Assembly (NCBI GenBank): GCA_021234155.1
Contig: JAJEKV010000031.1
Location: 4,170,835-4,234,834, forward strand
Direction of reading: 5' to 3'
Length of the DNA: 64,000 nucleotides
Source of the DNA: Isoetes taiwanensis
Taxonomy: Eukaryota; Streptophyta; Lycopodiopsida; Isoetales; Isoetaceae
Shown here: positions 3,437-55,860 of the stretch, in pieces
How positions within the stretch are numbered: the stretch's first letter is position 1
Layout of the letters: each line of letters starts with the position of its first letter
Notes under the pieces: generated by a model
Told to the model about the DNA's origin: nothing
What the model saw: the letters and a program-made list of their open reading frames with translations, nothing else
The model's database searches: none
Translations under genes and position numbers: made by a program

Positions 3437-3603
3437 AGAAGAGGAAGAAGAAGAAGAAGAAGAAGAAGAAGAAGAAGAAGAAGAAGAAGAAGAAGAAGAA
3501 GAAGAAGAAGAAGAAGAAGAAGAAGAAGAAGAAGAAGAAGAAGAAGAAGAAGAAGAAGAAGAAGAAGAAGAAGAAGAAGAAGAAGAAGAAGAAGAAGAAG
3601 AAA
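3437..3603. repeat. (GAA)n microsatellite, about 55 copies
   Basis: An almost pure GAA/TTC tract of roughly 165 bases. Long GAA tracts are polypurine-polypyrimidine and can form intramolecular triplex. This one forms the left edge of a tandem array of ~3.2 kb units that are also separated by GAA tracts. Confidence 0.98.
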
Positions 3604-6600: not shown

Positions 6601-6774
6601 CATTCTTTTTCTAAAAGTATACTTCAAATGAGCATTTGCTGATTGAAGTGGTTTCATGACCAATAAAATATTTTTTCTCGTGTAGGATAGCGGGACCCTT
6701 CTTTTCATAGGAAGGGTCCTGCATCCTTAATCCTGTGAAAAGTTGGTGCCTGCTACCCGAGGGTGGGTTAGTGG
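3604..6774. repeat. ~3.2 kb tandem unit, copy 1
   Basis: Begins GCCAAAAAAATAAGAGGC and ends at GGTGGGTTAGTGG, just before the next GAA tract. Copies 2 and 3 start 3,216 and 6,436 bases later and differ by scattered substitutions and small indels. Short stretches look like exon remnants: a ~50-residue segment with GFWDTLGTQALDYSGRVKLW (about 3,640-3,790) and a segment with CLKGLYIHGSRSQQDGN (clearest in copy 2, about 7,670-7,830). I do not recognise the family. It is probably a gene fragment or non-autonomous element amplified as a block. Confidence 0.9.
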
Positions 6775-6819
6775 GAGAAGAAGAAGAAGAAGAAGAAGAA
6801 GAAGAAGAAGAAGAAGAAA
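6775..6819. repeat. (GAA)n tract between units 1 and 2, about 15 copies
   Basis: A short GAA tract at exactly the junction of tandem units 1 and 2. Confidence 0.97.
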
Positions 6820-9800
6820 GCCAAAAAAATAAGAGGCTTAGAAGAAAACAAGAGGCTTAGTTGGTCATTTGACAAAAGAACCTGATTTCTATGGATCAAC
6901 ATTAGAACAATGGGGCTTTTGGGACACCCTTGGTATACAAGCACTTGATTATTCTGGTCGAGTCAAATTATGGCACATACCTAGTTATGCACAAAAATGT
7001 GTGACTAGAAAATAATTGTAAAGTGACTTTGGGAGACATTAGAAAATGGCATACTTATTTATGCATTGAGATTGAAGGATGGACCATTACAAAAAGCTAT
7101 GCTTTTATGGTTCAAATATTTATGCTGAGGCAAATTAATTTTTCTAGAACCATTACGAATGCTTTGGACCACTACAAGTGCTATGGGCAATGGTCAAAAT
7201 ATGTACGATGAGGTAATTTATTGTTTTCATGACATTACACTTTAATATTTGAAGTATGCTAAGGTTGTTTAAATAAGATAAGGAATCGAGAAGGGAAGCA
7301 CCTTTTATCCATATATATTAGAGGTTATTTCTATAAAGAAATTGGGGCCATGCATGTGTGCCACATGTCACACATAGCTTTATAGCTTTATGATAAGTCC
7401 TCCCATGAATTATTTGCTCCTACGATACTTATGGGGAAGCCGTCTACATTAAATGAGGCACAAGTATTTTTATGAAGGACAATAAGATATGGAGGACCAA
7501 AGATAGTATTTTATTATTATTCTTAGCTGTAATATATTTTCTCCAGAGTTCTTAGCCGATGGGCTTTGGCGCCATCAAAAACATTTCGTAGAGCCGAACT
7601 TAGCCGCTTTTTGTTCTTAGAGAGGCCGCTTTCTACTCTATGGTGTGGCTTGACTCTGCCACTGTTGTTGGAGGACCTAAATGCCTAAAAGGTCTATATA
7701 TTCATGGAAGCAGATCACAACAAGATGGAAACTTTCCTCCAGATAAGCCTTTATGGAAAAATGATGGAAGGATGCAAATGAATCAAACCCAGGAGGCCTA
7801 CGCCAGGAGCGCCCATGTCCAGGTTTCTATAATATTTTTGGCTTTCATTCCATCTTTAGGGAATTGATGCATGTTAAAGCAAATCTTAAAATAGAGATTA
7901 TGCTTTTCTTAAAAGTCTGCCTTTATATCCTCAAAATCTGTTTACACATCATTGAATAGATCTGCGTGGATGTCTATTATATTATTTAATCTGGATTATG
8001 ACCAGCTTATATGGTGCTGCTAGACACACTGATCTATTTATTAGGATAGTGTCTAATGATTCTGCATAAGTTAATCTAGGGTATAAACTTATGTACAAGA
8101 ACATGCACGGTGTAATATTAGCTTACTACTTCCTATCTGCGTGAAGATCATAAGATGCATTCAAATGCATGCTTGTTAGGTGTTGTGGTTGTAGAACCTG
8201 TTATTTCATTAGCTTTTTGCATCTTGAACACATGTTCTATTCCTAATGGGACCGCCCATCAAGTAACCTCTCACGGTTTTGTGGATCAGACCATAGATAA
8301 GAGATGGTAAATATGGTTTCTATGCTGGGGTAAGCAGCATGATGGCCCATGTGGGCGCAAATGGATACATAATATTATTTTACAAGTATGTATCTTAGAT
8401 CTGTACTTGCTGATTCTTAACTGATATGCACAGGAGTATGGCTGTGGTAGGCAGCCATATACTAGAACGTAATAGAAATTAACACATTTGCATATTTTCA
8501 CTGATTTGAAGAGCTCTATTTGCTTAAACTACACCATTCTACTTTATAGAAGAATAGGTGAAGGGCGAAGAGCCATAGTGTCTCACTGCTTACCTGATGA
8601 CCCATTCTCCTTTACCCTTTTAAGGCTAATTGGGGTTTTGTTTGGTTACAGGTAACCGAGACTCTATCTCCTGTTCTTTCAAAGTTACAAGGTTGCAGCA
8701 CAAATGCAACTACAAAGGAAATCCACAAAGTTACAAGGTTGCAGCAATAGTGCAACTACAATGGAAATTGATATATGGATATCACATGAAGTCTAGGATG
8801 AATAATGACTGGATTTATATATGTTTGGTGAGATCTTCCCCTGTATGGATCATTCTACATTCGATTACAAGTTGATTATGCTGAAAATTATATTATTATG
8901 CTGAAAATTATGATATTATACTGAAAATCTGAGATTGAACACATAAATCGATTACAAGTTTATTATGCTGAAAATTATGATATTATACTGAAAATCTGAG
9001 ATTGAACACATAATTGCTGATTATCCTTATACTCAAATTTACACTTTGAAAATGTTACTCAATCACTTGTACGTTTGGATATCTTATACAATATGCTTAT
9101 ATTTTGCAAAGGTTACAATTTATGTTGATTTCAAAATCCAAGGGATTAAGGGTGTGCATGTGGCCTGGTTTTTAACCAGGATGGATATTGGGTAGTTGTT
9201 TATATCTTGAATGAAATTATACCTTGTAAAATCTACAATGTATAATGTATATCTGGATATAAATGTAAATAAGAAGAAATTGTGATTTCCATTTGCTGGA
9301 GGTATCTAGCATGCACGACTACCCTTGATTTCTTGGTAGCACGCGTACTTATAATGACAGGTCTTTATTGTAGGGATTAAAATTCCATATTCTCATGATT
9401 TGAAGAATTTCTGATCACATGCCTTATGCTCCATATTTGTACTAATTGGAATTTGATTGATACCATGTAGTGAGAATCTGAACTTATTGGGCTTGGGATA
9501 TGGAGAGGTGGGAGACCCGCATGGTCGCACAAGTTGTTCAAAGCCTAAGTCCATGATGTTTGCGTAAAAAACCAAGTCACAGTACAACCCGGTCTTCTAC
9601 CCGACTCCTTAGAGGCACAATATTAGAGCATGCAAACATACTAAGGGGATAAATCCAGGTGTTGTCTCTCCACATATCCATTTCAGTTTCATGTCTATAT
9701 ATCTATGAAAAATTAGATGATCTTATAACAGATTAAAAGTCTGTGGTGGCCCAGTGAGCCAAAAAGATCTTCATAAAGATCTATATATTATATGTAGAAT

Positions 9801-9992
9801 GTTGGCCCATTGTGCCACATTCTTTTTCTAAAAGTATACTTCAAATGAGCATTTGCTGATTGAAGTGGTTTCATGACCAATAAAATATTTTTTCTCGTGT
9901 AGGATAGCGGGACCCTTCTTTTCATAGGAAGGGTCCTGCATCCTTAATCCTGTGAAAAGTTGGTGCCTGCTACCCGAGGGTGGGTTAGTGGG
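6820..9992. repeat. ~3.2 kb tandem unit, copy 2
   Basis: Near-identical to copy 1 over its full length, with the same start and end. In the segment at 7,640-7,867 a small indel relative to copies 1 and 3 opens a 75-codon frame (MVWLDSATVVGGPKC onward); copies 1 and 3 open a different frame there. The opposing indels suggest none of the copies is under coding constraint now. Confidence 0.92.
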
Positions 9993-10039
9993 AGAAGAAG
10001 AAGAAGAAGAAGAAGAAGAAGAAGAAGAAGAAGAAGAAA
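9993..10039. repeat. (GAA)n tract between units 2 and 3, about 15 copies
   Basis: GAA tract at the junction of tandem units 2 and 3, similar in length to the tract between units 1 and 2. Confidence 0.97.
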
Positions 10040-12483
10040 GCCAAAAAAATAAGAGGCTTAGAAGAAAACAAGAGGCTTAGTTGGTCATTTGACAAAAGAA
10101 CCTGATTTCTATGGATCAACATTAGAACAATGGGGCTTTTGGGACACCCTTGGTATACAAGCACTTGATTATTCTGGTCGAGTCAAATTATGGCACATAC
10201 CTAGTTATGCACAAAAATGTAAAATAATTGTAAAGTGACTTTGGGAGACATTAGAAAATGGCATACTTATTTATGCATTGAGATTGAAGGATGGACCATT
10301 ACAAAAGCTATGCTTTATGGTTCAAATATTTATGCTGAGGCAAATTAATTTTTCTAGAACCATTACGAATGCTTTGGACCACTACAAGTGCTATGGGCAA
10401 TGGTCAAAATATGTACGATGAGGTAATTTATTGTTTTCATGACATTACACTTTAATATTTGAAGTATGCTAAGGTTGTTTAAATAAGATAAGGAATCGAG
10501 AAGGGAAGCACCTTTTATCCATATATATTAGAGGTTATTTCTATAAAGAAATTGGGGCCATGCATGTGTGCCACATGTCACACATAGCTTTATAGCTTTA
10601 TGATAAGTCCTCCCATGAATTATTTGCTCCTACGATACTTATGGGGAAGCCGTCTACATTAAATGAGGCACAAGTATTTTTTTATGAAGGACAATAAGAT
10701 ATGGAGGACCAAAGATAGTATTTTATTATTATTCTTAGCTGTAATATATTTTCTCCAGAGTTCTTAGCCGATGGGCTTTGGCGCCATCAAAAACATTTCG
10801 TAGAGCCGAACTTAGCCGCTTTTTGTTCTTAGAGAGGCCGCTTTCTACTCTATGGTGTGGCTTGACTCTGCCACTCTGTTGTTGGAGGACCGAAATGCCT
10901 AAAAGGTCTATATATTCATGGAAGCAGATCACAACAAGATGGAAACTTTCCTCCAGACAAGCCTTTATGGAAAAATGATGGAAGGATGCAAATGAATCAA
11001 ACCCAGGAGGCCTACGCCAGGAGCGCCCATGTCCAGGTTTCTATAATATTTTTGGCTTTCATTCCATCTTTAGGGAATTGATGCATGTTAAAGCAAATCT
11101 TAAAATAGAGATTATGCTTTTCTTAAAAGTCTGCCTTTATATCCTCAAAATCTGTTTACACATCATTGAATAGATCTGCGTGGATGTCTATTATATTATT
11201 TAATCTGGATTATGACCAGCTTATATGGTGCTGCTAGACACACTGATCTATTTATTAGGATAGTGTCTAATGATTCTGCATAAGTTAATCTAGGGTATAA
11301 ACTTATGTACAAGAACATGCACAGTGTAATATTCGTTTACTACTTCCTATCTGCGTGAAGATCATAAGATGCATTCAAATGCATGCTTGTTAGGTGTTGT
11401 GGTTGTAGAACTGTTATTTCATTAGCTTTTTGCATCTTGAACACATGTTCTATTCCTAATGGGACTGCCCATCAAGTAACCTACGCCGTTTGTGGATCAG
11501 ACCATAGATAAGAGATGGTAAATATGGTTTCTATGCTGGGGTAAGCAGCATGATGGCCCATGTGGGCGCAAATGGATACATAATATTATTTTACAAGTAT
11601 GTATCTTAGATCTGTACTTGCTGATTCTTAACTGATATGCACAGGAGTATGGCTGTGGTAGGCAGCCATATACTAGAACGTAATAGAAATTAACACATTT
11701 GCATATTTTCACTGATTTGAAGAGCTCTATTTGCTTAAACTACACCATTCTACTTTATAGAAGAATAGGTGAAGGGCGAAGAGCCATAGTGTCTCACTGC
11801 TTACCTGATGACCCATTCTCCTTTACCCTTTTAAGGCTAATTGGGGTTTTGTTTGGTTACAGGTAACCGAGACTCTATCTCCTGTTCTTTCAAAGTTACA
11901 AGGTTGCAGCACAAATGCAACTACAATGGAAATCCACAAAGTTACAAGGTTGCAGCAATAGTGCAACTACAATGGAAATTGATATATGGATATCACATGA
12001 AGTCTAGGATGAATAATGACTGGATTTATATATGTTTGGTGAGATCTTCCCCTGTATGGATCATTCTACATTCGATTACAAGTTGATTATGCTGAAAATT
12101 ATATTATTATGCTGAAAATTATGATATTATACTGAAAATCTGAGATTGAACACATAAATCGATTACAAGTTTATTATGCTGAAAATTATGATATTATACT
12201 GAAAATCTGAGATTGAACACATAATTGCTGATTATCCTTATACTCAAATTTACACTTTGAAAATGTTACTCAATCACTTGTACGTTTGGATATCTTATAC
12301 AATATGCTTATATTTTGCAAAGGTTACAATTTATGTTGATTTCAAAATCCAAGGGATTAAGGGTGTGCATGTGGCCTGGTTTTTAACTAGGATGGATATT
12401 GGGTAGTTGTTTATATCTTGAATGAAATTATACCTTGTAAAATCTACACTGTATAATGTATATCTGGATATAAATGTAAATAA
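10040..12483. repeat. ~3.2 kb tandem unit, copy 3, truncated at its right end
   Basis: Matches copies 1 and 2 up to the phrase AATGTAAATAA, then runs into a long GAA tract. In copies 1 and 2 this same point reads AATAAGAAGAAATTGTG, a natural two-triplet GAA seed. The missing ~700 bases therefore end exactly at an internal GAA seed. A small deletion near 10,220 also distinguishes this copy. Confidence 0.9.
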
Positions 12484-12514
<31 letters not shown>

Positions 12515-17700: not shown

Positions 17701-19113
17701 CTCCGGGTTCGGTTCCCCTATCCCGGCCGTTGGATCCTCCGGATTCGGGGCCCCTCTTCGGGAAGGTCCAAAAGATTCCGCATCGGTCCGGAGAACTTGT
17801 CAAACCGCAGGCGTCGATGTCGGCCTTGTAGAAACCGCTTGTTTTGTCGCTCGCACCGGATGCTCCCGAATGGCAAATAGACCTTGCCAAATCGTCCGGA
17901 ATGGCGAAATTACCCTAGGGAGCAAGTTACACCTGGCCGGTTTTGCGAAAGAAGGAAACACTCACGCCCTCCACGACAGTATCCCCGCATGCACATCCTA
18001 GGCCAATTGACTACGGAGTGTGATGGAAGTGAGCTACTTTGGCGCTTCTTGGAGTTCGGGTGGTCTTCGCCACGGAACTTGGTCCCCTGTGGCAATGTCG
18101 ATGTTCGAGTCCATTGGCGCAGTCGGATCGCGATTCCGAGAGGGAGGTCGCCCGTCCGGCCCCCGGGGGCCTTGGGGAGAGGAAATTTGGGGCAAGCAGC
18201 CTCCGGAGGGATTTTAGGGTCCAGCTCAAGGCGTCAACACCCCAACTCCACTTCAAGACAAAGCGCCAAGGTCCCTACCGAATCGACAAGGAGAAGGCCT
18301 CAAACGTAAACCCCCCGGGTTGCCGGGGCTCTAGAAGGGTTTACGTTTTGGGGCCGAGTCCCGTCTGATGCACTTGGGACTGGGACTGTGAAGCGGCGGT
18401 GAGAATACGGAGCAAGGGGAACCGACGGGCCGGAGTTTGGGCCTTTCCTCCTCCCGATGTGGCAAGTAGAAGTCGGGGGCTTTTGCGATGGCAAGACATT
18501 AAGAAATTCGCAATTAATGCATTGCACGAAAATAAATTCGGTTTTTGCCACTGGATCCCTAATTCATCTCCAAAGCCTGCGGCCCAATTTTCGGAATTTT
18601 GAGGAGAAGGTCTAGGTCAAAGGGTTAGCATTAGAATGGTGGGGCAGCCGTTGCGGGGGCATCCGAGCTGGCACCCTTCCCCAAGTCAAACGAGGCCGGA
18701 CCTTGCGGGGATCCCTCACAAGAGGGGAGAGTCCGGACTCGGGGAGGCGGGATCAAAAAGTTCAGAGGCAGCCCTTCCTGGCAGCGCTCCCCTGGGGCTG
18801 CGCTGGCTAATGACCACCCTCCGGGCCGGTTCCCCCTATCCCACCGCTGGATCCTCCGCTCGAGGGCCCCTCTTCGGAAGGTCCAAAGATTCCGGATCGG
18901 TCCTGAGAACTTGTCAAACCGGGCGTCGATGTCGACCTTGTAGCACTGTTTTGTCGTTCGGGCACCGGGATGCTCCGGAATGGCAAATAGACCCCCAAAA
19001 TCGTCCGAATGGCGAAATTACCCTAGGGGAGCAAGTTACACGGTCGGTTTTGGCGAAGAAGGAAACACTCCGCCCTCCACGACGAAGATCCCGCATGCAC
19101 ATCCTAGGCCAAT
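14762..19113. repeat. GC-rich ~1.11 kb satellite array, left part
   Basis: The marker AGTCCATTGG recurs at about 14,764, 15,884, 16,997 and 18,108, and the marker CATGCACATCCTAGGCC near 15,768, 16,880, 17,988 and 19,096. The period is therefore about 1,110-1,120 bases over nearly four copies. Each unit contains GGATCCCTCACAAGAGGGG, GGGTTTACG and TTCGCAATTAATGCATTGC. Copies differ mainly by small indels and substitutions at C/G-rich sites, and no reading frame is conserved between copies, so the many open stretches are not credible genes. The array stops at 19,113 where the 12.3 kb element begins. Confidence 0.95.
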
Positions 19114-19145
19114 AACCATCATTCAATTAAATTGGGATTATGTCT
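19110..19145. repeat. Left TSD (CAAT) and 32 bp terminal inverted repeat
   Basis: CAAT at 19,110-19,113 is followed by AACCATCATTCAATTAAATT and 12 more bases that match the right end exactly in reverse complement. After 19,145 the two ends diverge. Confidence 0.95.
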
Positions 19146-21262
19146 ATTCCAAAATCAGCCAGATAAGCATTTTATTGACCATTATATTGAATTAACCACA
19201 CTTTTGCATGTGTTCATTTTTAGGCCGGAATATGCATTTTATGTGAAAATGCAAAGGCATTCAAATATTGATGCAAATGACCCATATTATGACGAATGAA
19301 TGTAGGTTGAAAAAGCGTGAAATTGCCTATTAATTCGCGCACATTCACGGACGACAACGAAATCTAAACAATGAAATTGTAAAGCTTTTTACGAGTAAAT
19401 AACAACAAGCAAGTTGCTACAAAGCGAGAGATTTTAAATGGTTCAAATCGCGGCGTTGCTTGGCATAAATAACGCATTACAATAGAACATAAACTACAAA
19501 AACTAATCGATTCATCGTCCTCGAGGAGCTGCGGCGGTCCACGAGATCACGTCGATCATGAACAAACCATGCTCGGATTCCATATAAGATGGATTACAAC
19601 ATCAAAGGGATCGGGATAGAAGCGGGCCGGGATTCATAGCGACATCAAGCCGATCCACGAAGTTCTATTTCTAGCTCAGCGGCACCTGCGACCGCAGAGG
19701 TCCGCATGGTTCATCTTGCGGGTAATAGAATGTGCCATAATAACAAGGAGAAGGCGAGACCGGGCGATTCGAGGGGCTATTTCATGCATACCTATTTATA
19801 CACACCAAAATTATTGGCGGTATATACCTACAAATTATTGCAAGTATAACAAACCGTTACCGTAATATAAAAAATAATATCATTACCACAAACCAATAAT
19901 CTTTGATAAAAGAACACAATATATATTCAAAACCTTTAGGTATAAAGTATATTTCATATTCAAAACTTTTTGGAAAGTGTATTTCACAATATACATATAT
20001 ATCAAAAAAGTTCCCTTTCTAGGGCGATTTTCTCAAGTTCCCTGTCAATTTCCCACTGTCCGGATCAAGGTGTGGGTATAGTGTGTGTATCTCTTCGACC
20101 GTTTTTCTGAAGCTATTTCTTGCGGGACACTAACAAAGCGCGAGGAAGTCATCATTGTCAAAATCTTGAGGATGATAGGATGGCGGATTCAATGGCTGGT
20201 GGACTGATTGAAGCAACACTTTAGAAGCGTCATCATCCACAATGATTATGCCTTCCTTATCCTCAACACCTAGGGCATCCATCATGTTGCGCAAGCATTT
20301 CACAAATATCTTTTTACACATGGGTTCTTTAGGGTTTGTGAATGAAGCACATTTGCTTTGATCCCGGATGGGCCTTAATTTCTATTTAGCTTCGAGCACT
20401 ACTTTCAAAACATCCTGTATATTTCTATGCTCCATGGATGACCAAATTGCTACTACAAAATGGTGAAGGCACGGTCCAACATCTCCTTCGGATAAGGTAG
20501 CGGGTAAACATATTTGATGCGTGTCTCAAATGGTTGTTGCGCATACCATGACTTTTCAAACGTTGCTTTAGGTAACGTTCTACATAGCACACCATTCAAA
20601 TCAAAGACCGGTTACTTTTGGGGAAGCCAAATCATTTACGTAAGGAGAACAATAGCGTATGAGATGAAAGAAATGGAAAACAAAAGCGGCGCCGGTAGCG
20701 ATTTCATGAATGATGCATGTCAACATAATTCAAAAGTATGCTCTAGGAAACTCCAAATCGCGCGGTAGCGATTTCTATAAGCTTCTAGTTTGAAAAATGC
20801 ATGGATATCAAAAAGGAATATTGTCCGCGATACCTTTTAGTCTTCATCATTCCCCGTTCTCTTCATCCCTTGCATCTTTATTACGAATTGCCTCCGTGCG
20901 CTAGAAGCACCAACCACATCGGTTGAGATCGTATAGTGTGAACTTCACGCTTGATAGTTCATTACTCTTTACGCTAACCCGGCTAGTGTTATCAGATTTG
21001 GAGTCCTTCATCATCAAGATTGTTATTATCATCATCCTTGGCATTGTCATCTTGGTCTATATTTTTTCGGGGCCAAGAATGTTCCACGGGCATGTCGATA
21101 GGTACTTGGTGATCGGGCTGCTTCGTCCATGTCATCCATGAAGTTGGTGCCACGCAATGCACGTCTCGGACTCTCCCGTTCCTTAAGCAAATCTGAAGGT
21201 ATTTCGGCCTTGAGCTAGAAGCTTTGTTTTTTACTTTCAGATTGGTCCCCTAGGGGCTTCCT
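19146..21262. other. Element interior, mostly non-coding with unrecognised short open stretches
   Basis: AT-rich sequence with a GC-richer patch at 19.5-19.75 kb. Minus strand 20,130-20,321 is open (contains DALGVEDKEGIIIVDDDASK), possibly a terminal exon of the cargo gene to its right. Two copies of the semi-palindromic motif discussed in the findings lie at 20,682-20,704 and 20,755-20,774. No confident gene. Confidence 0.35.
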
Positions 21263-22341
21263 CTAGTACTTTCTCAAAGAAGAGGTCCAAAAATTTCTGG
21301 CTCGATCATCCGGAGACGACGCTCGGCATTTCCTTGCTAACTTCAAAGCTTCTCTACCGATGTAACCTCCAACGTGAAGTTCCCGACAAGTTGTTCCCAA
21401 TGGACAAAATGCTTCAATGAGATCTTGGGAAAGATCCATAGAGAACCCGTTCTTGTTTAGCTTCCCCTTATGTGAAGTTAGGAGCTCATACTTAATGTGG
21501 CCCACAAGAACTGGGTGATCCTCGTTTTCTTCCTCATCCTCCTCTTCCTCCTCTAACTCTTCCCGCGACCTTGACAGGACTTCCCCTTGTCTTCTTGCTC
21601 CGGATAGAAGGCGTTTCGCGAGATCGTTCATCTAGCCCGATAACCTTTGCCATGCTAGTTTCTCTCCATCTGCTTTTCCCTTAAGCCTTTCATATTCCTT
21701 ATCATCCATAATGGCTATCATAATAATAAGCACATGAGAAAAGTTTACTTTAACATCTTTGAAGTCAACGTCCTTGGTTTCATCTATGAGGATCGCTGTC
21801 GTATGACTTTCCGCGCATTCTAAGTCATTTGCGGCACTTAGAGCATATGCATAGGACATGTCGGAGGGACATATAGTGACGATTGTGTAATGCATTTCTG
21901 TCGTGCAACCACTTTGCATATGTTGAAGAGCGTATTATAGTCTTCAAGTGACCATCACGGCGCCTCGACTATCAAGCACGAAGAGTGTGATATCATGAGG
22001 ACCTTCACCCACTTCGGCAAGGCACACTTGAAACCGTGGACACTTGATAAAAAATGTGGATTCCGTCTCCGAGTGCACGCTTCACCAACGCGACTTTTCG
22101 TTTCAAAGTCGGATGCAACTTTTGTGTGAATTCCAGATCTTTGCAACGTTCTTCAACCTGGCGCTTGACAAAGTCCTTGGACCAAAATACATACTTCTTT
22201 AGGTCGTCGTTGGAGGCGTTATACTTTTGCATTAGTCCTAACTCCAGACAATCCACCACTCGATGTAAGCCTTTGCAATTCCTCACCAACGCCTTCTTGA
22301 GCACTCTAATATTCTTCACTCGTTCGTCATGCATCTTCAAA
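21263..22341 (-). pseudogene. Cargo pseudogene, possibly DNA-methyltransferase-like
   Basis: Successive minus-strand segments in different frames: a charged N-terminal part (22,005-22,341), a middle segment with DITLFVLDSRGAV (about 21,960-22,010), a part with AILIDETKDVDFKDVKVNF (21,632-21,919), and a C-terminal part (21,263-21,631) with an acidic linker. The last contains DLIEAFCPLGTTCRELHVGG followed by YIGREALKLARKC. This resembles the motif I region of permuted N4/N6 DNA methyltransferases, where a helix and 'PG-T-V-D-F-G-G' precede 'A-x-x-x-G-R-x'. The expected Asp is not present as such, and no DPPY/NPPY motif was found. The family assignment is tentative; the state as a frameshifted pseudogene is clear. 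Confidence 0.35.
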
Positions 22342-23906
22342 GGATTCCATAGCCTTTGTTCTTTGAGGTTTTCTTGTAAAGGATTTCCTTTTTGATTAAC
22401 CTATCCAAGACTGAGATGAGTTCTTGATCTTCTAATCCACAGGCCTTCCTCATCTACGTTTGTATGGATATCAAAATTGATGTGTCAACACGAGGAAATC
22501 TTCCTTGTGAATCGGCAACTTCTTCTCCACGTGGGCGTCCCGAATTCATTCCATTTCTCCCATCACGGGATCACGAAGCAAAAACTATCTTGCGGGCATC
22601 CTTGGGCACGGTTGGTTCTTGGCGGACATCACCCTTTTCATCTCCTTTTTTTTTTTGATCTGGTGCTCTTGTTCTTGTCACGTATTATAGTCCGACTAAG
22701 TGTCCTTTCCGGCAACTTGAATTGGTAGCTTTTGGGTATGCCCCGTGCGGTAGGCATTGGCTTCCCATATTCAATCCAGTTCCGGAGCATGCGAAGTTGC
22801 TCTATATAGGGATCTGCAAGGAATAACCGTTAGCTTTATAATCATGAATTCAAACAATCCTTCTAGTTTATAATCGCACCCGCTTCGATTTCATATTAGA
22901 AGGCAAATCAGCGTGCGATTTGCCTAAATAGCAAAGGGTTTTTGAAATAGTAGATGGTTCTAGTCGTATAAGCAAATCGGCGCTGGCGATTTTATATTAG
23001 AATACAAATTAGCGTGGCTCAACTTGTATTCTAATATAAAATCGCCGGTATATTTGCTTATTTGCGAAACGTCTACCATCGAGAACCCATTGCCTTCTAC
23101 TATGAAATCGGCGCTGGCGATTTGGTATCTGAAAAATAAAAATGTGGGAAGAGAATTACCTTTTGTATAGGAAAGTTTTTCCCATGTCATTTAGGAGTCG
23201 CTTATTTTGACTAGTTCGGCGGTGTTGTTGACCCGCTTCGAGAACCCGGCGGTTTCGGCGAGAATCACGACTTATAGAACAACCGATTCCCGGTATCTTT
23301 GTGCCTTCTTGATGAGAATCTTCTAGGCCTCTATTGAATCTTTGGCCATCTATTATCATAAAATGTATGTGCGGGTTCTCGATGAAGTCCTCCGCTTGCT
23401 CCGGATGATTACCTTTTTGTTACGGTATCGTAAGGCACTACATCTGCGGGCATTGGCACCTGCCACGGATTTTCGATCATCTTTGTTCAATATCTCCAAG
23501 GAGTCTTTGCTTGTCATACCTTACTGGCGATATAAATAGCTTTAGTGGACTGAAAAGCTGTCCCGTTATTTGGATGTGTGAAGGCTGAGGCCCGTGGATA
23601 CTTGTCGGCATATTTCTTCGGTTTGCTCATTGCCTCCAAGCTGCACGGCCTTGTCATCGTCACTTGTAAGGCCTGCTTTGTCATACGTAGTTTCCACGCC
23701 TCTAGAGCTAGCTTCTTCCTTGTCCTTCAGCGCACGTAAGTAGACACTTGCCCGGGGCTCGTGCTAATGGCTCGTCGAGCAGTATAAGCCCCCTCGCATA
23801 TTCTTATAGGAGTCAATGGCTCGCCACTGTCCGACCAAATTTGAAGAGGTTATCGGCCATGTCGTGCGATCTTAAAGCGGTCTCTTTAAAAGAGCTCGCC
23901 TTTGCA
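22342..23906. other. Non-coding element interior with foldback hairpin
   Basis: Scattered short open stretches on both strands that I cannot assemble. At 22,971-23,060 there is a strong foldback whose inner 23 bp arms (22,985-23,007 and 23,024-23,046) are perfectly complementary. Copies of the AAATCGGCGCTGGCGATTT motif are at 22,974-22,993 and 23,104-23,123. Confidence 0.5.
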
Positions 23907-24405
23907 TCAATTGATCTTCTTTAGGCTTTTCTTATGTTTTTGGCCCACTTCAACTAGCCGCGAAACGAAAGAATCGTCACATGCTTCACATGTAATAAGA
24001 ATTCCCTGCTTCTTCATTTGATCTATCTCTCTTAACCTTGACATGAATATGAGGTCTATCTTCCCACCAGTTTTGAATATCTCCACATACCATTCTGACC
24101 CCTCTATAAGATCTTCTTCTGGACATGGAGGTTCTACCTGAGCCTTTATTATTCCAGATGTATCTTCTAACGTCAATACATGCAGGTCTGCAGGTCTGTA
24201 ACAGTAACATCTTCTTCTGTCCTTTGCCTTTTCTGGACTGTAGAGGTCTCGCCTTGCTTGGTCCTCCCTCTTTTGATTGTCTTTTGTGATCCTGTGAAAT
24301 TACAGCACATGGGTTAATCTTTTTATGCTCAAATAAATGCTGTCGACACATATGCAACAAAAACGCGCTTGGCGCGATTTGAAAATGAATACACAGCAAG
24401 TTCAT
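23907..24405 (-). pseudogene. Unrecognised cargo coding fragment
   Basis: An 89-codon open segment on the minus strand contains HVLTLEDTSGIIKAQVE-like sequence (with a CTG-rich repeat AGGTCTGCAGGTCTG just upstream) and ends with SRLVEVGQKHKKSLKKIN. A second frame over 23,986-24,405 supplies a lysine/arginine-rich lead with REDQARRDLYSPEKAKD-like content, so a frameshift probably separates the two. Amino-acid composition looks protein-like, but I do not recognise a family. It may belong to the same cargo gene as the methyltransferase-like fragment. Confidence 0.3.
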
Positions 24406-25573
24406 TTAGTTTATTGGGGTCAGGAGCCAGGCGCGTTTTGTCCCAGTCAAAATGCAACAAATACGCGCTTGGCGTTTTAAAGTGACACGAAAGATAAAGA
24501 AACTAATGTAATGCCTAATTAAAAGCTGCTGCGCCGGCGTTTTGTCCGAATCAAAATGCTTTCGGGGACACAACTAACTATAAAATGCAACTTAAAGAGT
24601 TGAATCTTCATCAGAGGACACAACTAACTATAAAAAACACAACTAGCTACTGACACTGTTCAGCTAAGTATACAAGCTTCAAGCAACACATACAGAATTA
24701 AAGTACACATTAAGCATTTGTTTCCATACATTTTTGGGACATATGAACTCAAACATTAGAGGACACATGCTTCTTATTGGATAATAACTTTCTGAGAAAA
24801 ACATCCTAAAAACCCTAACAAAAAAGGGACCGCAGAGATCAATTCTGAGAAAAAAAGCAGATCAATTACGAGGCTTGTTGGATTTGTGCTTTCTCGTGTT
24901 CGACCTCCGGGCTTTGCATTTGTGCTTTGACTGTCGCCCACCTCTACCAGGCGCCTCGGCGGCGGTACCCGCCGATCCTCTAGGCGCCATTGAACTGCAA
25001 GTCGCGGATAGTATGAGGCTGGGATTTTGGTTTAAACTTATATGTATGCGTTCATAATCTTGGCCGTCAGATTTAAAACCGTAAATTCAAATTCGCGTCC
25101 TTTTAAATTTATACCGCCTTAATTAACCGCCCGTCCCGCTCATTTACAAATTTAAAATTGTGTTTTTCTTTTTAGTGCAATTTCAAGAACCATTAATTAT
25201 TAATTTCAAGAAACGCATATGTGGCAATCTACTACCACCTAATCGGCCACCTACTATCAGAGCGCCCAAGATCATTCCTACTATCAGAGCGCCCAAGATC
25301 ATTCCTACTATCAGAGCGCCCAAGAACAATCTTCTATCAAAGCGCCTACAATCCCATTCGATCGAGCCGCCTTCAATCCCATTCGATGTCTGCTGAACTA
25401 TGGTGAGTGTGATTCCATTCCGAATGCATTCTCTTGTTCTCTATTTTTCGTCCTCTATTTTTTCCAATGAATTCTGGTTCTTTATCGATTAATGGAGAAG
25501 AATGCTATCTTTTTAACAAAGAAACTTGAAGCGTAGTAGGCTTATGTAAAATCGAGATCCGAATCCAAATTCA
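24406..25573. other. Non-coding interior with short repeats
   Basis: Contains semi-palindromic GCGC motifs at about 24,359-24,380, 24,427-24,439, 24,460-24,479 and 24,526-24,543. A 27 bp tandem repeat (CTATCAGAGCGCCCAAGATC core) runs three times at 25,253-25,335. A possible exon end with donor ATGTCTGCTGAACTATG|GTGAG lies near 25,385-25,402. Confidence 0.45.
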
Positions 25574-25731
25574 ATGTGTCATGGTGTTCCTCTTGGAAAC
25601 AGTTTCTGTAAGATTTCCATTATAAACTGCAATTATGAAGATGAGGCTCTTCCAAGAAGACATCCCGGTGGCGATACGGTTGGTGAAAGTGTGGGCACAT
25701 TTGTAGCATGGCCAAAAGAACGTCACGAAAA
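25574..25731 (+). pseudogene. Exon-like fragment resembling a CACTA-associated DUF8039-type domain
   Basis: The plus strand reads SFCKISIINCNYEDEALPRR followed by HPGGDTVGESVGTFVAWPKE. It then reaches a good splice donor AAAAAG|GTATGT at about 25,732. The pattern 'hydrophobic-x-V-x...LP-x-P...G-x-x-G-x-F-V-x-WP' is typical of a domain common in plant CACTA-type transposon proteins (I associate it with DUF8039). If right, the plus-strand reading direction matches the transposase remnants at 28.2-31.2 kb. I am not sure of the family name. Confidence 0.4.
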
Positions 25732-25916
25732 AGGTATGTATATTTGGATATTCAAAAAAAAAAAAAGAATATATCATATCATCTGCGTGATGTTGTGAAC
25801 TTTGAATTCTGTGATGGTCTTTAGCGGAGTCTTATCAACCCCATGAAACTACACATTAATGAAAATATGTAGTTTCTTGGGGTTGGTCATCTTGGCTGGA
25901 GGGCATCCACGAGGAT

Positions 25917-26453
25917 TCAATGTTTTCGACATTGCATATAAAAAAAATAAACTAATGACGAGAAAAGTATAGTGCAAAATTGCGCCCGGTAGCGGTTTGT
26001 ATTCATATTCAAAAAGTTATGTACATTTCTTCTTACGCAAAAATGCGCCAGGTAGTAATTCTTTCTATCTCTACAATATGTCACACGGGCCCACTTCATC
26101 TGCCCAATCCCATGAAAGTCCCACCGAACCACCACGATATGGCAGGATCCTCATCTTCCCCTGGGATGTCGAGTCTCCAAACCCGAGTGTTGTATCGATC
26201 CCCGATACTATAAATCAAATCCTTGTACTTATTTGTTGGCATGAGCCTTACTAAGAGCATGAGGAGTCCGATATGTCCATAGATGCGATGGAAGTGTACC
26301 CATGGCCCACGATACAGTACGTCTAATGGATTCTCCAACTCTCTTTGAACGTTTTGAACAAAGACACTCAAGTAATATCTTGTCACGGGTCGAGTTGATG
26401 GTCGCCCCGGGAACTAGAACCAACCGGTGTATTTGAACCAGCCCGGTGTCCAT
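25917..26453 (-). pseudogene. Unrecognised minus-strand coding fragment
   Basis: Two overlapping open frames (26,096-26,386 and 26,229-26,453) appear to be one frameshifted reading. The better one contains PLDVLYRGPWVHFHRIYGH and DLIYSIGDRYNTRVWRLDIP. It looks protein-like but unknown. Copies of the semi-palindromic motif flank it (25,977-26,000; 26,038-26,060; 26,515-26,534). Confidence 0.25.
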
Positions 26454-28221
26454 GCATAAGGAAAATCCATGGCACTAGAACGAGAGAAAGTAATTAGCCG
26501 GAGGATCTATTTCACACGCGCGCTGGCGCGATTTGTATAGAGCCGTATGAAATTGAAATGCCAAACTAAAAACGTGCCGGGCGCAATTTGATTAACCTAG
26601 TGGAAAACGTAACCCAAAAATAGAAATCGCCAAGCGCGATTTCTCCCATTCCAACATATTATTCTAACAAAATGCATAATGCGAGAATGCGGAATGCGAA
26701 ATTCAAAATATAAAGCCGGTATTAGTTCATTGTTTAGTTCATTGTTTTAGTTCATTATTTAGAAGCGGATAGAGGAAGAGCTAGTGAAGATCTATGATCT
26801 ATGATATCATAGATCATAGAGCAAGATCATAGAGCGGATATGATCTATGATCATTATTTACTTCATTATTTCAGATCATTAATTAGAACGGATAGAGGAA
26901 GAGCTTCGTGAAATAGAATACCTTCATTATTTTAGATCATTAATTAGAAACGGATAGAGGAAGAGCTAGTGAAATAGAATAAGAGCAGATCATATAGGCA
27001 AGATCCGCGAACAAGATCATAGAGCGGGATATTACGATTCATGTAAAAGTAACTCGATTAAGCGATTAAATTAATTGTGGTAAATATCTTGATGCATGTA
27101 AAAGTAAATAACATGCTTTTACGTAAAATAACTAAAAGAATGAGAGATACTAACCTATTTGTGTTTACATGCAGAAATTGAGCCTTTGACTTCGAAAGAA
27201 ATCAAAAAGATCGAAAACCAAAGTAATAGCGACTAGAAGCCGAAGTAGCTTTAACACAAAAAACCAAAGTTATTCAAAGTCGGAGATTGTACAGAGCCGA
27301 AAAACCTTGGAGAATTCTGCCTACAAACCTTGGAGCCGAAAACAACTTTGAGCCGAAAACCCTAAGCTCGAAAAAGCCGAAGCTTAAAGCATATAGAAGC
27401 CGAAGTTTAAAGAAGATAGAAGTCGAAAAGTCGAGATTGATGCGATATAGAAGCCGAGAAGCAAATAGAATTCGGATTGAAGCGCATTGAAGTGTCTAGA
27501 TAGCCGATTGAAGCGTATAGATAGCCAGAAAAGCTCGAAAGCGTATAGCCTAAAAGCTCGAAAGCGATAGTCTAAAAGTCGGCGTAATGAAGTAGATAGA
27601 TAGATCGAAAGGATAATATCAAAAAGCTCACGTAAAAGCGGCGGAGTTCGAAGCACGCCAGAGTTCAAAGCGCACTGTAGTTTGAAGTTCGAAGAAGAGA
27701 GACGTAAAAGCGGAAAAGTGGGAAAGGGATTGTAAATCGGAAATAATAATCGCTTTAAAATTTCGCATCACTTACAATAATAACTACTAACATTTATTGC
27801 AAGGGTTATATAAGTTATAAGATTTAAGGTTAATAGTTTTAAGGTTTATAAGTTAAGGTTATTAGTTAAGGTTAATATTTTTAAGTTCATAAATAAGGTT
27901 ATAAGTTTAAAAGTTTATGAATTTGAATTTAGAAGTTTTAAGTTTTAGAAGTTTTAGGCTAAGGTTATATTTATTGAAGGTTAGAAGTTTTAACCTTACA
28001 ACTTCTAACCTTAAAAGTGCTAACCTAAAGCCTTAAAGTTGTTTTAAGGTTACAACATTAAAGGTTATTATAAGTTAATATATTATAGGTAAACTTATTA
28101 TTATTATAGATTAAGTTATTATAGGTTATTAAGGTTATTATTAAGGTTAACTTTCATTTAAGAACATGTTAGGGAGATGTTATTTGGATATGCTAACTTA
28201 CTATAGGTTTTATTTATTTTA
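26454..28221. other. Low-complexity interior of the element
   Basis: 26.76-27.01 kb holds repeats of GGATAGAGGAAGAGCTAGTG and a perfect 30 bp palindrome (26,791-26,820). 27.2-27.7 kb is a degenerate array of GAAGCCGAA-like words. 27.8-28.2 kb is an array of TTAAGGTTATAAGTT-like words with a 13 bp-arm hairpin (27,977-28,012). No gene. Confidence 0.6.
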
Positions 28222-31178
28222 GGTCAATGGCATGCAAAATGCTAAATCCCCAAGGCCCCAATGATGGTGATCAAGGCAAAGAAAAATCCCCAACTAATGA
28301 AGATGACAAAGATGATGGGAAAGGAAAAGGAAAAGACCAGAAATGAAAAGGATGAAGATGACAAAGATCATGGCAAAGGAAAGGAAAAGACCTCAAATGA
28401 AAAGGATGATGCCACAGAAAGGAAATTGTACTTTATACTAGGGTCGATTGGAAAAACAAAAGGTCAAGATCCCGCATGCATGCAAATGTAGAGGCAAGGG
28501 AGAAGGGATTATTGTTCTAGCAGATCCTATCAATGCAAAGTGAATGATGAAAGATTAGGGGAGGACGAGGTTAGGTGTGGCAATCTCAAAATTATATGAC
28601 AATTGGAAGGAAAAGGGTTCGGGCAAACAAGAATGCCTAGCTTGTGTGAAGCAACTAGAGGTTCCAACTATTGTTGCATGGCCTAGGGACGATATTCAAG
28701 CTGGAGGGGAACTACACGTTTCCTATAGATGTAGAACCATTGTCAATAATGTTTACACGATGTAGCAAGAGGCCACTTCCAACTTTCAAAAATTATCCCA
28801 CCAAAAGATGTAAGTCGATTATGATTGTTCTCCAAGCCACGATCAAAGGTTAGAGGAAGTGAATGTTGTTGGGCCTCCCAGATTAGAATGTTCACAATAG
28901 AAGAGATGGTGGTAGCAAGAGCTACATATCGAGGAACATAAGTGTGATAGCGGGAGGAATTTCATGTACACCATATTTGGCTATGCAATTCGGATGAAAG
29001 ATCAAAGAAGAAAAGATTCCCATTGAATGGAAAGTGGATATGTTCAAAAGCATGGATGGCTATACATGGAATTCCAACCTCTTCTTAGCACAACCGCAAA
29101 AGAGACATGAAAATGGTAGTAAAATTGCATTGCATGGGAACAATGGCACAGTAAGGCCTACCTCAAGAACTATAGTTTTTAAAGGAAATATTTGAAAGAT
29201 ATGTGGATTTCAATGCGAGAAAACATGCCACATAAGAGTAAGAAGGATGAGCAGGGGTAGAGTTATTGTTGAAAAGAGATTGCCATCCCATTGTACCCGA
29301 GAAAGAGCATATTAGAGGAAATAAATGCATTGCTTGGGAACTTGGAGTGGCCTCTATATCCAGCCAGTTTTTAGTAGGCTATGGAATAGGCATTTCAAGC
29401 ATGTGACCATAGCAACTTCAAACAACTTTGCCAAGTGCAATTTATGTGCCAAGCTGAAGGAGACACTAGATAAGACGTGCAACCAAGTCTAAGGGCAAAG
29501 ATAAAGGGAACATATGAAGGACCATATGACAGATCAACTTATTGGATGTGGAGGACCTTATCCGCAATGGAACCTAATAACTATCTATGTATTATACATG
29601 ATAAAATGGACCAACGAAGACTTGTCTTCCACAATTCAAAATACATTCCTAAGTCATGTGGAAGATCATACCCTTTGCAGATTTCAATGACTGGGGCAAT
29701 ATTGCATGGGCAGTCTCAGACCTATTATGGCCATTTCAGTTTAGAGTTGTGGAGTGATGGTCCAGATTTTCACATTGGGAGTATCATGAGGTGTTTAAGA
29801 AACTATGAGAAGGGTTACAATGGTCACCTCTGAGGATCCTACAAACTAGCCGGGCACTACATAGTGCATTGTTGGATGGAACCCCTAATAGTATTGAAAA
29901 GTTTAGCAAGGCAAGATTTAGGAGGAATGGACCTAATGAACATGTTGGAGCTTCAACATCTCGTGCTAAACCTCGAGATCTGCTTGAGAAAGTTCCTCTT
30001 GCAACTAGATAATTGTGCTGGTCAAAATAAGAACAGGTGGATGTTTTCTTTCCTATCCTACTTAACAGCTGTGGGTGTTTTTGAAAGAGTCAATTTGGGG
30101 TTCCTAATGCCCGGACATACTCATGAGGATGTGGATGCATTGTTTGGAAAATATAGTCATGTATTGAGGCAATAGACAGTTACCAACTTTCCCAGGCTAT
30201 TGGAAATATTTCATGGATGTACAAATCCATCTCCTATAGGATCTATCATAGAAGAAGTGCCTGATTGGAAGAGTTTTGTGGATGGTTATGCTCTCGACAT
30301 GGAAGGTCATTCTAGACCTCTTCAATTCACTTTTTGGGTGAGAGAAGGGATTCCAATCATGCAATGGAAAATGAGACCTTCAGAGGAGAAGTGGAGAGGT
30401 GGGGCAGAAATTTGGCCTTGAGGGATGCAAATGGCAAGCCTATGATACCTCCTGGTCAACCAAAAGCTCTAAAACCAACTGAAGAAGTCAAGCAATTGGG
30501 ATTGACTAAGGATGGCATCAATGACTACATCAAGCATTGGCAAACTAATTCAGATGACACAAATCGTGCATTGATAGATTATTGGAAGAAGGTGATCAAC
30601 TTGTTGGATGAGGTAGACACATCCTCTGAAGAGCTGAAAGAAGGGTGGTTCCCTAAAAGTAAGTGGAAAACATTAGGCTGGTCTTGTGAAGATGATGGTA
30701 CCATTAGTAGCATTGTGAAGGCATATGCTCCTCCTCAATCGATAAACACTATGTTGGTCCTAAGAAGGATAGGCCAAAATATCTAGGCATGGATTCTTAT
30801 GAACCTTCTCTGGCGTGGAGTGCAACCAATTTGTAGTAGTAAAACCAGCCAGATCTAGAGACCTATCCAAAGTGGTTGGGATGGACTATCTCGGATATTT
30901 GCAAAGAAAGAAGGTGATGTTAACTTCAATAAGGTGCGGCGTGGAATGGTGGTGTCGATTACATCAGTTGAGTAATGTCACCGATAAAGAAAGATATTGA
31001 TTGTTGGACAAAGAGGTGGAGGAGAAATCCAAGTGATCCCGATCTTTGGCTAGACATTGAAACCGTATTGTACTCGTGGACTCCAAAAACTATTCCTAGT
31101 AAAACAGCGAGAGTTACAATACCTCAGGATGTAAGGAATAAGGTTCTCATATCCTTGGGGATGCTAGTGGAAAAATGA
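28222..31178 (+). pseudogene. Decayed transposase with DNCAGQNKN...GHTHEDVD core
   Basis: Starts after a plausible acceptor (TTTATTTTAG|GTCAATGGC) with MACKMLNPQGPN and a lysine/aspartate-rich tail. It continues through many frameshifts. Recognisable segments are 29,477-29,833 (PLQISMTGAILHGQSQTYYG), 29,864-30,175 and 30,200-30,786. The second holds LQLDNCAGQNKNRW and FLMPGHTHEDVDALFGKYS. The third holds IIEEVPDWKSFVDGY and LQFTFWVREGIPIMQWKM. The conserved D...QNKN...GHT..D spacing fits an RNase-H-like DDE transposase core found widely in plants and other eukaryotes (I believe the DUF7869 type). It is the best candidate for the enzyme that mobilised the 12.3 kb element. At least four frame changes make it non-functional. 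Confidence 0.7.
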
Positions 31179-31398
31179 AAAACAATTACTATGTATCTTT
31201 TCTACAGTTAATAAAAGTTGTGTACTACTTGAGTTCCATGATATATGATTTTGTAATTAGAAGTTAAGGTGTGAGTTTATATTCCCGTGTGTGATTATAT
31301 GTTAACGTCTATTCTAGTCTAAGGGCAACAAAGTTACTAAAAAAGTGAATTTAACAAAGTTACTAAAAAAGTGCAATATAAAATTTATCCCAAAATTA

Positions 31399-31434
31399 AG
31401 ACATAATCCCAATTTAATTGAATGATGGTTCAAT
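31399..31434. repeat. Right 32 bp terminal inverted repeat and TSD (CAAT)
   Basis: Reverse complement of the left end, finishing AATTGAATGATGGTT at 31,430 and followed by CAAT. Just inside, a 26 bp phrase AACAAAGTTACTAAAAAAGT is repeated twice (about 31,328-31,373). Confidence 0.95.
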
Positions 31435-37319: not shown

Positions 37320-40300
37320 TACAAAACCTCTATTACATTAGTTCCTTTGTTAATGACATATATAAATTTTATTGCATCCAAGTAAACATACTTGTTCACA
37401 TTGCTCAACCCTCACGGTGTGTCTTGACCACGATACCGAAGCGAGTTGAATCTAGTGAATCTGAGGCCACTCGGATCTTTGCGTGTCGTGGCATGAGCAC
37501 CAATACACACAAGATCAAACCATTCGGCATCAAACAACATTTTTTGAATGCACTACCGACATCAACCTCCATGATAGTCTTTATAGTACCAATCCATTCC
37601 AACATTGCCTCGATTGGGTTTGGGTCTGCACTACCGGTCGGCAAACTGTACTAAACTTTGCTGATATACCACAATCATAAGTCGTTTGCCATGATCCACA
37701 CTTTGTCGTCGAAAGTGAGCACCGAAAGACCATATTGATGCATATGAATTATACTACAAAGTAAAGGAACAAATGTTCAAAATAACGAACGAAACTTCGT
37801 GAATTATATGCTATTAAGTTGCACTTACAAATAGTGACACGCCTTTAGCATATGCAAATTCTTCGCTAGAAACATGTTCATACGTTGCCTTGCCATCTCT
37901 AGTTGTTCGAGCAGCCATTTATTGTTTATCTCACTTGGCGGGACCCTAGATGATCCGGAAGTGGTTGTTTCGCGATTCTTTTGTCGATAAGCGTCTTCTC
38001 TCCTCATCTCTCTTTATTTTTTTCTTCCTCGTATTTTTTTATCCATTTCTCCATGGGAGTGGAGTTGTAGATGAGAAACTTATTGACTTTTTGCTGTTCT
38101 TCTAGTGTGAACAATTTCTTACGTGGTCTTCCTTCGGGAACTTCTCCAATTATAGTTGGAGTGTCTTCATCGGTCCATAATCGTGGAGCATTGGGGTGTA
38201 GATCGGCCAAGAACTCGGTGACATAGAATAATGACTCTCGTGCTAACCAACCCTCGGCCATGCAACCCTCTGGCCTTGCCTTCTGACGTCATTTAAGTCC
38301 TTGAGGACCTTCGAGGCGTTCTATAAAAAACATCCATCTAGGATTTGTTGTGCCTGCAAGCTCTACTTCGTCCACTAAATGCACTAGTAAGTGAGTTTGT
38401 ATGTCCAGAAAACTTGTTGGGAATTCTTTCTCTAGCATACAACATGCCTCAACGACCTTAGTTCGCATGTCCGCAATTTCATTTGTCGGTATCTCCTTCC
38501 TTGTAATCCATCTAAATATCATTTAAGAAAGAAAAAAGTTAAGTGAGAGTTCAGCATCGAGTGTTTTCTAAATCCGTACGAACCTGGAAAACTCTGATAG
38601 GAGACATATTGCACGTAGTGGACCGTCGGCGAGACGACCCCTCAGAACAATAGGCATAACAAACTGCAACATCTTATGCCAATCATGAGATTTCAACCCA
38701 GTTAACTCCCCTTCGTTAGAGAAACAATTACATAGCGAATGCATATATCTGTCGAGTCTTTATTGCCTTGATAAAGCTTCTCGAGCGGGTTTCATACATT
38801 TTCTAGGCACGATCCAATCCACTTGTGGCCTTATTCCTTCTTCGACATTTAACCATACTTTAGATTTTGATCCAGCTTCTTGTAGATCTTCTCGTGCTGC
38901 ATCTGTGTCCTTACGTCCGGTGACATGCTTCCAAATAGACGCCGAAACGTTTTTAAAGATGTGCATGGGATCAAGAAGATGATGGATCTTCAATTCTGTC
39001 CAATAGGGTAGAAGGAAGAAGGATGCTTTCCACTTCATTCCCTTAACCTTATTTCCTTCAGCGGCATCCCACATGTTACCCCAATCTCTCATTGTCAACC
39101 TTTTGGGAGGCTCTTCAGTGCAATGTTTTTCTCTTGGACCTACGTATCGAAGTCGATTTTCCATTGGCAGATATCTCTTGAAGTTTGCATAGACATTTTT
39201 GTGCAATGCCGTTGGCCGTGGCGAGTTCAACTGTTCAAACCCACACAAGTGACATGCCGCATATCCGGACACTTGGAGTCCGTGAGAGTTCATACAAACC
39301 AGGGCCAATCGCTTGTTGTCCACATTAAGATTGCTCTCAAGGTAAATCTTCGTTCAACACGAAGTTCTCTTGAGACATCGTAAACTTCAATACCTTCACT
39401 CCACAATGTCAGAAGCTCATCAATAACTATTTTCAGATATGGATCTAGACTTTCCGGCTTCTTCGGTCCTGGAACTAATAGTACTACCATTAAATGGCTA
39501 GTCTTCATGAGTAACCACGGTGGTAAATTATAGTTGATCAACACTACTGGCCAAGTTGACCACGCGGCTGATTGACGTCCATAAGGATTAACACCATCCG
39601 TTGCCAACCCTAATCTGAGATTTCGTGGCTCTCTTCCAAATTCCGCCATGTTTCATCAATATGCTTCCATTGCTTGCGGTCACTAACCACGCGGAGTACA
39701 TTGTCACTCGGCGGCGCGTAGCGGCACACCAACCCATGAGCGAAGCTAGAGATTCACATCGAAACAATAGCCTTATCACGAGGGATCAATGGAAAGTAGC
39801 GAACCACCTTCATCGGGACGGTCTTTCCCTTGGCATCTGCATTGTACCTAGAGGCACCACATTTAGGGCATGTTTCTGTGTTCTTGTAGATGTCATCCGG
39901 ATAATATACCATGCAATCATTTGGACAAGCGTGAATCTTATGGTAGCCTAAACCGATGGCTGCCAATATATTTTTTATTTCGGTCGACTTTTGGGCATAG
40001 TGTTCCCTTGTGGGAGTATTTTCTCTTGCAATAACACTTATATAAAACAGGACCTTTTACGTATACATTCAACTACAAATTCAATAAGTCAAGTGATTGC
40101 AATTGTACTTACTCTAACAAAGCCGTAACAATCGGCATTGCTCCATTTGAATTTGGCTTGAAGGTTTAATATCAATAAAGATGTCGTCAATCTAGATATG
40201 CTTGCACTGGATATAATGCTTTATCGCCTCCTCCAATAAAACGTGATCTTCATGACCATCGTTAGGAGTATTTATATCGTCATCTAGGTCGTTTATCGAA

Positions 40301-55500: not shown

Positions 55501-55860
55501 CTGAATGTTTCCTCTAATGTTACCAACCAACTGATTTTTCACCTCCATATTCCTGAATTCTTCACCAAGAAACTCTCTAACTTCTTTATCTTTCATGAAA
55601 TCACTCAAAACTTCTCTTTTCTCTTCAGTGTCCATTTTAGATGTATTTCTAACGAATGAAAACACTATATTCTCCACAATTTTACTCCTGCGAATGTTCC
55701 TTTGGCTGACACAACAAGAACTCTCTTGTAGAGTAGCTTGTTTTTCCTCTTTTCTTCGCTTTCGTTGCCTTCTCTTTTTTAAAGTCTCTTGCTCTGATGT
55801 CCTCTTCTTTTTTCCCTTTGAATTGTTCACATTTGTGTCTTCCATAGCTATGTTCATCAA
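52570..55860 (-). pseudogene. DDE-like transposase (DGAASQFK / FFGSNHGKGEHDGKG type)
   Basis: N-terminal exon 55,860-55,078: basic NLS-like start (KKKRTSEQETLKKRRQRKRR), then FGSITDDVIELVHEFWDANT. Next 54,444-53,932: FKEQYPEVKIHQRAFEKLKP and cysteine-rich CSCACGVCQC. Then 53,913-52,570 (447 codons): LPPGILVSIGRFSLRIF, KQVTILVHITYYVD, WVFSDGAASQFKAARPFYF, WNFFGSNHGKGEHDGKGAEL and an acidic end. The last two pieces are in the same frame, separated by only two stops (TAA, TGA) within 21 bases, so one long protein has been interrupted very recently. The D...QFK...HGK..DG pattern marks a transposase-like family seen in plants and invertebrate animals; I cannot give a firm superfamily name. Where relatives would be expected to have a DFS motif, this copy reads RFS. 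No terminal repeats identified. Confidence 0.65.
54445..55077 (-). other. Intron of the transposase gene
   Basis: No open frame. The sequence is an unusual run of short near-repeats of ACTACAACTA/ACAACTAGAACT words (54,490-54,980), giving a CAACT-rich low-complexity tract. Confidence 0.5.

Follow-up and report, generated by a model that had tools for sequence, protein, structure and literature searches.

A Probable Cut-and-Paste Transposon Family with a Putative DUF7869 Transposase and a Divergent Accessory Gene in Isoetes taiwanensis

Results

The 64,000-nucleotide stretch of the Isoetes taiwanensis genome that we analyzed (the window) contains what is very probably a cut-and-paste DNA transposon from a very abundant family. 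This element encodes a DUF7869-containing transposase together with a divergently oriented accessory gene and sits in a satellite array. In the mechanism that we propose, the transposase would bind the 32-bp ends of the element, excise it through a D-D-E/D site of the RNase H type, and integrate it where the target has been cut with a stagger of 4 bp, which would give rise to 4-bp duplications of varied sequence. The divergently transcribed accessory gene encodes a protein in which a middle region separates a DGQH (ParB/DndB-like) module from an FCP1/NIF-like phosphatase domain; this protein may act on the DNA or chromatin of the element, for example by end binding or counter-silencing. The copy in the window was inserted into one unit of the satellite array.

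The element spans positions 19114-31430 (12,317 bp) and is bounded by perfect 32-bp terminal inverted repeats (TIRs) at 19114..19145 (+) and 31399..31430 (-), so that its termini read AACC...GGTT. Both ends are flanked by the target site duplication (TSD) CAAT, at 19110..19113 on the left and 31431..31434 on the right, and this duplication can be neither extended nor shifted. With up to 3 mismatches allowed, the 32-bp end has no third site in the whole window, and it occurs in none of 100 shuffled sequences. Subterminal short repeats common to both ends were not found at 10 bp.

The host satellite extends from about 14754 to 34945, is GC-rich (about 58% GC), and consists of units of about 1.1 kb, which are about 85-89% alike when whole. 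The phrase GGCCAATTGAC occurs in this array at 15779, 16893, 18001, 32551, and 33673, all five times exactly in a search that allowed 1 mismatch. When the flanks of the element are joined with a single CAAT, they align through GGCCAATTGAC without a gap to each of these five intact units. In the assembly, the element thus genuinely interrupts a single satellite unit. Taken together, the shuffled controls, the empty-site match, and the end sequences and TSDs found elsewhere in the genome (see below) eliminate chance or misassembly as the source of the ends. The original prediction of perfect inverted ends, a CAAT duplication, and a satellite phrase restored by removal of the element therefore holds in all three parts.

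We then counted the ends across the assembly (1,658,258,908 bases in 1,110 contigs). The 32-mer has 685 + 685 = 1,370 exact matches; allowing up to 3 mismatches raises the count to 1,718 + 1,709 = 3,427. Read backwards, as a control, the same 32-mer has 0. If two near-exact ends make one element, the family comprises some 1,700 elements, which is an estimate only because nested, broken, and solo ends are unsorted. A search with both ends, as originally recommended, thus reveals a very abundant family. The flanking tetramers were tabulated for 20 inverted pairs with exact ends 12-24 kb apart, chosen by eye among the first 100 listed places. An exact 4-bp duplication, and none longer, is present in 18 of these 20 pairs. 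A 21st pair (C1028:10136281-10149351; 13,071 bp), the right end of which has 1 mismatch, is flanked by TAAT on both sides. An exact 4-bp duplication, as in the window, is hence present at 19 of 21 other end pairs, the exceptions being one pair each on C284 and C24 (2/21). The 19 TSDs represent 17 different tetramers, among them CCTC, GTAG, and ATGC; none is TTAA.

These data exclude a number of superfamilies. The TSDs of hAT and CACTA elements are 8 and 3 bp long, and those of Mutator, PIF/Harbinger, and Tc1/mariner elements 7-12, 3, and 2 bp. All five are incompatible with a TSD of exactly 4 bp and none longer, just as the TTAA-specific piggyBac and Kolobok are with the 17 tetramers observed. 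The expectation that this large element with a 4-bp TSD lies outside the common plant superfamilies is confirmed by these lengths.

Ten full-length copies that we retrieved (12,038-12,482 bp) are all collinear with the element in the window. Their right halves are 85-94% identical to it in most bins. The left halves are 87-92% identical in the copies from C85, C113, C246, C170, and C74 and about 69-80% identical in the other five. Two classes of left halves on similar right halves (L081-L098) suggest that modules have been exchanged between elements.

The right half of the element carries the transposase gene on the plus strand (28226..31175), which was delimited by alignment with a 784-aa open frame (L068) and is interrupted in the assembly. 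Its core (29474..30418, +) matches DUF7869 (Pfam PF25273) with 131 bits (E = 5e-38) when the stretch is read through two in-frame stops. Three acidic residues stand out: a first D in HDKMDQ (29600), a second D in LDNCAGQNKN (30008), and an E in GHTHEDVD (30125), with 38 residues between the second D and the E in the window copy. All three motifs are conserved in an alignment of ten long open transposase frames (up to 807 aa), except that the first D is replaced by N in one member and that L068 has an extra residue inside GHTHED-VD. DUF7869 is found in all ten, with scores of 126-131 bits for the transposase core. The predicted transposase of the QNKN/GHT type is confirmed by these motifs and by its DUF7869 core.

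We searched the genome with this core; of 13,156 first-look candidates, 126 yielded a total of at least 143 scored matches. At 26 of 30 transposase loci, that of the window included, a 32-bp end with 2 or fewer mismatches lies downstream of the core; at the other 4, no TIR was found within the extracted stretch. In all 15 pairs of transposases with dS above 0.2, dN/dS is 0.10-0.18, and in the six closest pairs it is 0.25-1.13. Pfam assigns no function to DUF7869, which here sits inside elements bounded by TIRs and TSDs. From these sequence comparisons we conclude that DUF7869 is likely the catalytic region of the transposase. The three residues may form a D-D-E/D site in an RNase H fold; this fold is only inferred because DUF7869 has no relative in the PDB by sequence (a search with the transposase profile gave one chance-level match, E = 0.84).

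Other searches for relatives of the transposase gave little. Six of the ten aligned members match Mut7-C, with a best E of 0.013, which is below the cutoff and was treated as chance. Relatives were not confirmed in the viral_contigs and genome_contigs collections, and searches for phage relatives of the transposase or of the DGQH exon (see below) gave no match. No paper that names DUF7869 was found in the literature searched. A separate search by motif and accession matched 36 papers; the 20 listed were all accidental hits on the string GHTHED.

The window contains further coding sequences. A second transposase-like gene on the minus strand (52570-55881) has long open pieces with the motifs DGAASQFK and HGKGEHDGKG, no match in Pfam or NCBIfam, and no similarity to the DUF7869 transposase. 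Pieces of a CACTA-type (tnp2) transposase (Pfam Transposase_21) lie at 38760-39652 (-), and a hAT-type piece (DUF659) lies at 56907-57527 (+). Pieces of a class III-type peroxidase gene lie at 45166-46348 (-), with the Pfam peroxidase match on 45166-45609. Along with a LINE (see below), the peroxidase, CACTA, and hAT pieces point to a plant host.

We turned to the question as to whether the interrupted frames reflect broken genes or assembly errors. The window copy and ten others were compared with L068 over 2,352 bp. These 11 copies are 94-96% identical to L068 and contain 19-49 frame-shifting gaps each, with only 0-3 in-frame stops. Many indels recur at identical sites across several copies. 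Altogether, the transposase genes of these copies have 370 indels of 1-2 bp. No less than 51.4% of them are at most 3 bp away from CAG or CTG, as compared to 9.1% of positions (5.6-fold). CCG/CGG is enriched 3.6-fold, and the control motifs GAG, GAC, AAG, and TCA give factors of 0.9, 1.2, 0.55, and 0.8. Plant transposons are methylated in the CHG context, and nanopore errors are known to arise where methylation is left unmodelled. For these reasons, we think that most of the frameshifts are assembly errors, as would arise from basecalling at methylated CHG sites, and that the window copy may not be dead. Two further observations support a methylation error: indels in the left half of the element are 3.4-fold in excess at CAG/CTG, and a LINE reverse transcriptase with a zf-RVT domain (60952-63036, -) has remained open over 694 aa. 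Two others oppose it. Indels in the satellite have no clear excess at CAG/CTG (1.1-1.2-fold; CCG/CGG, 1.6-1.7), and the 24 indels in the 3.2 kb array of the window are 0.6-fold at CAG, 5-fold at CCG, and 4-fold at the control motif GAG. This tandem array (3557-12489) has a unit of roughly 3.2 kb, is about 98% identical, and contains AGA/AAG runs. In the satellite, small indels (0.059-0.064 per base) outnumber substitutions (0.051-0.055), and this surplus may be sequencing error, too.

The same frameshifts could be real and older than the last jump, in which case the window copy would be truly dead, non-autonomous, and moved in trans by intact relatives. Indeed, this copy has perfect ends while its frame, relative to L068, is shifted by 35 gaps and interrupted by 3 in-frame stops, and 21 of the 35 gap events are shared in place and size with at least one of the ten other copies. 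Giant elements of Ectocarpus are also described as frequently having a pseudogenized transposase (PMC12477816). We nevertheless consider a dead copy unlikely, given the concentration of small indels at CAG/CTG, the paucity of in-frame stops at 4-6% divergence, and the recurrence at the same CHG sites, which is what a systematic error produces. The CAG/CTG enrichment also led us to drop two arguments, namely that shared frameshifts prove mobilization in trans and that disablements next to perfect ends can date the insertion. With assembly error as the preferred reading, the original prediction of "transposase remnants" was right about the transposase and may be wrong about its being a remnant.

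The accessory gene runs on the minus strand, divergently from the transposase. Between the two genes lies a region that contains short tandem repeats (24314..28222), the boundaries of which are approximate since they derive from ORF positions. The upstream exon contains the DGQH module (23144..23804, -), which we located by tblastn with an exon from C290. Its likeness to ParB/DndB is weak: two copies match DndB in Pfam with 14-17 bits, below the cutoff of 29.1, and the open copy on C1028 (L099) has no such match. The best PDB hit to this exon has an E of 1.1. The middle exons (21647..22793, -; tblastn with exons from C170 and C258) encode a region that by eye resembles an N4/N6 DNA methyltransferase, with no match to a methyltransferase family in Pfam scans. 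The FCP1/NIF-like phosphatase domain lies in pieces at 20133..20611 (-). Joined, these pieces match Pfam NIF with 29.0 bits (cutoff, 21.8). In the open copy on C1028, the most downstream exon (L099:361-1056) reaches 60.6 bits over positions 1-159 of the 160 in the profile. PDB matches to this domain are weak, the best being UBLCP1 (E = 0.11).

All ten full-length copies contain the accessory gene, which is open in many copies. The 13,071-bp element on C1028 combines a 784-aa open transposase frame with open accessory exons. Genome searches gave at least 150 scored matches each for the DGQH module (5,038 candidates) and for NIF (5,899 candidates). Among the matches listed (125 transposase, 150 DGQH), all 18 transposase/DGQH pairs within 15 kb are arranged head-to-head, as compared to 0.34 expected. 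We examined 55 of the 150 NIF matches listed; 48 of them lie within 6 kb downstream of a DGQH match and share its strand. For the DGQH exons of C1028 and C290, the sole measurable pair, dN is 0.11 and dS 2.1 (saturated), which corresponds to a dN/dS of about 0.05; two other pairs are saturated, and the ratio is not computable. Because of its presence in all ten copies, the fixed head-to-head order, and this low dN/dS, the accessory gene is, judging from its sequence, a maintained, standing part of the family rather than chance cargo. What was predicted as opposite-strand cargo is therefore better described as a constant component.

NIF-like phosphatases are ordinary eukaryotic proteins, and gene capture by plant elements is on record in parts of the literature. 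One could therefore imagine that the opposite-strand gene is a chance assembly of captured host gene fragments, as in Pack-TYPE elements. We regard this as very improbable in view of the ten out of ten copies, the fixed order and orientation, the open frames, and the dN/dS of the pair measured. As to the function of a maintained gene, we suggest, by analogy to a proposal for Ectocarpus, that its protein acts on the DNA or chromatin of the element itself; it may help the element to manage its own movement or silencing.

Discussion

Where does this transposase belong? Sola elements are described as duplicating 4 bp of target and having TIRs of 11-1124 bp; most are 2-9 kb long, some over 15 kb, and they are known from a moss and seemingly uncommon in flowering plants (PMC10741241). 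Our element has a 4-bp TSD, and its 32-bp TIRs and 12.3 kb length fall within these published ranges. It appears to work like Sola1, to which it may belong, as compared by description only. Its transposase could instead be unrelated to Sola and represent a superfamily of its own, as yet without a name, that produces 4-bp TSDs. This is a serious possibility, to which we assign slightly less than even weight: no named transposase family in Pfam or NCBIfam scored for this protein, and the literature search found no paper that mentions DUF7869, but TSD length, element size, TIR length, and the opposite-strand gene all fit the descriptions of Sola (PMC10741241, PMC3627910, PMC12477816). A Ginger-type element would account for the TSD and the host, as Ginger has 4-6 bp TSDs and occurs in plants (PMC10741241). 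We exclude this assignment, the probability of which is close to nil, by termini and domains: the ends are AACC...GGTT instead of TG...CA, the TIRs measure 32 bp rather than 40-270, and Pfam scans detect no integrase domain.

If our interpretation is correct, DUF7869 would be the catalytic domain of a transposase, and ends, TSDs, and selection would link a Pfam domain of unknown function to transposition. We tentatively entertain a broader picture, in which giant transposons of one superfamily, which may be distinct from Sola, abound in a land plant and are perhaps still active there. They would carry their own DNA or chromatin regulator (DGQH plus FCP1/NIF-like), which lets elements of 12-13 kb evade silencing or keep it in check although their end pairs number more than a thousand. 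The ParB-like genes that accompany the transposase in giant transposons of algae would then have a land-plant counterpart with an added phosphatase-like domain. The family would also illustrate that a large and very abundant group of elements can look dead through motif-specific assembly errors, which matters whenever the activity of transposons is assessed from genomes of this kind.

The closest published design that we found is Sola1-1_Ec32 of Ectocarpus. As described (PMC12477816), this is also a giant element of a superfamily with 4-bp TSDs, with an accessory gene on the strand opposite to the transposase; the accessory gene encodes a ParB-like DNA-binding domain, and the transposase genes often look broken. 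In contrast to the 12-13 kb elements of Isoetes taiwanensis, Sola1-1_Ec32 measures 21.5 kb, and its protein has a DNA methyltransferase domain where we see a likeness by eye without support from Pfam. The FCP1/NIF-like domain is, by comparison of descriptions, an addition of the Isoetes taiwanensis family (PMC12477816). The Sola superfamily at large shares the 4-bp TSDs and includes our TIR and total lengths in its range, and Sola2 of amoebozoa also carries an extra gene, in that case Fanzor1; the TSDs described for Sola2 are AT-rich, unlike CCTC, GTAG, and ATGC among ours (PMC10741241, PMC9033089, PMC3627910). Ginger and GingerRoot share TIRs and 4-bp TSDs with our family and differ from it in their termini and in the integrase domain that our element lacks (PMC10741241, PMC2836005).
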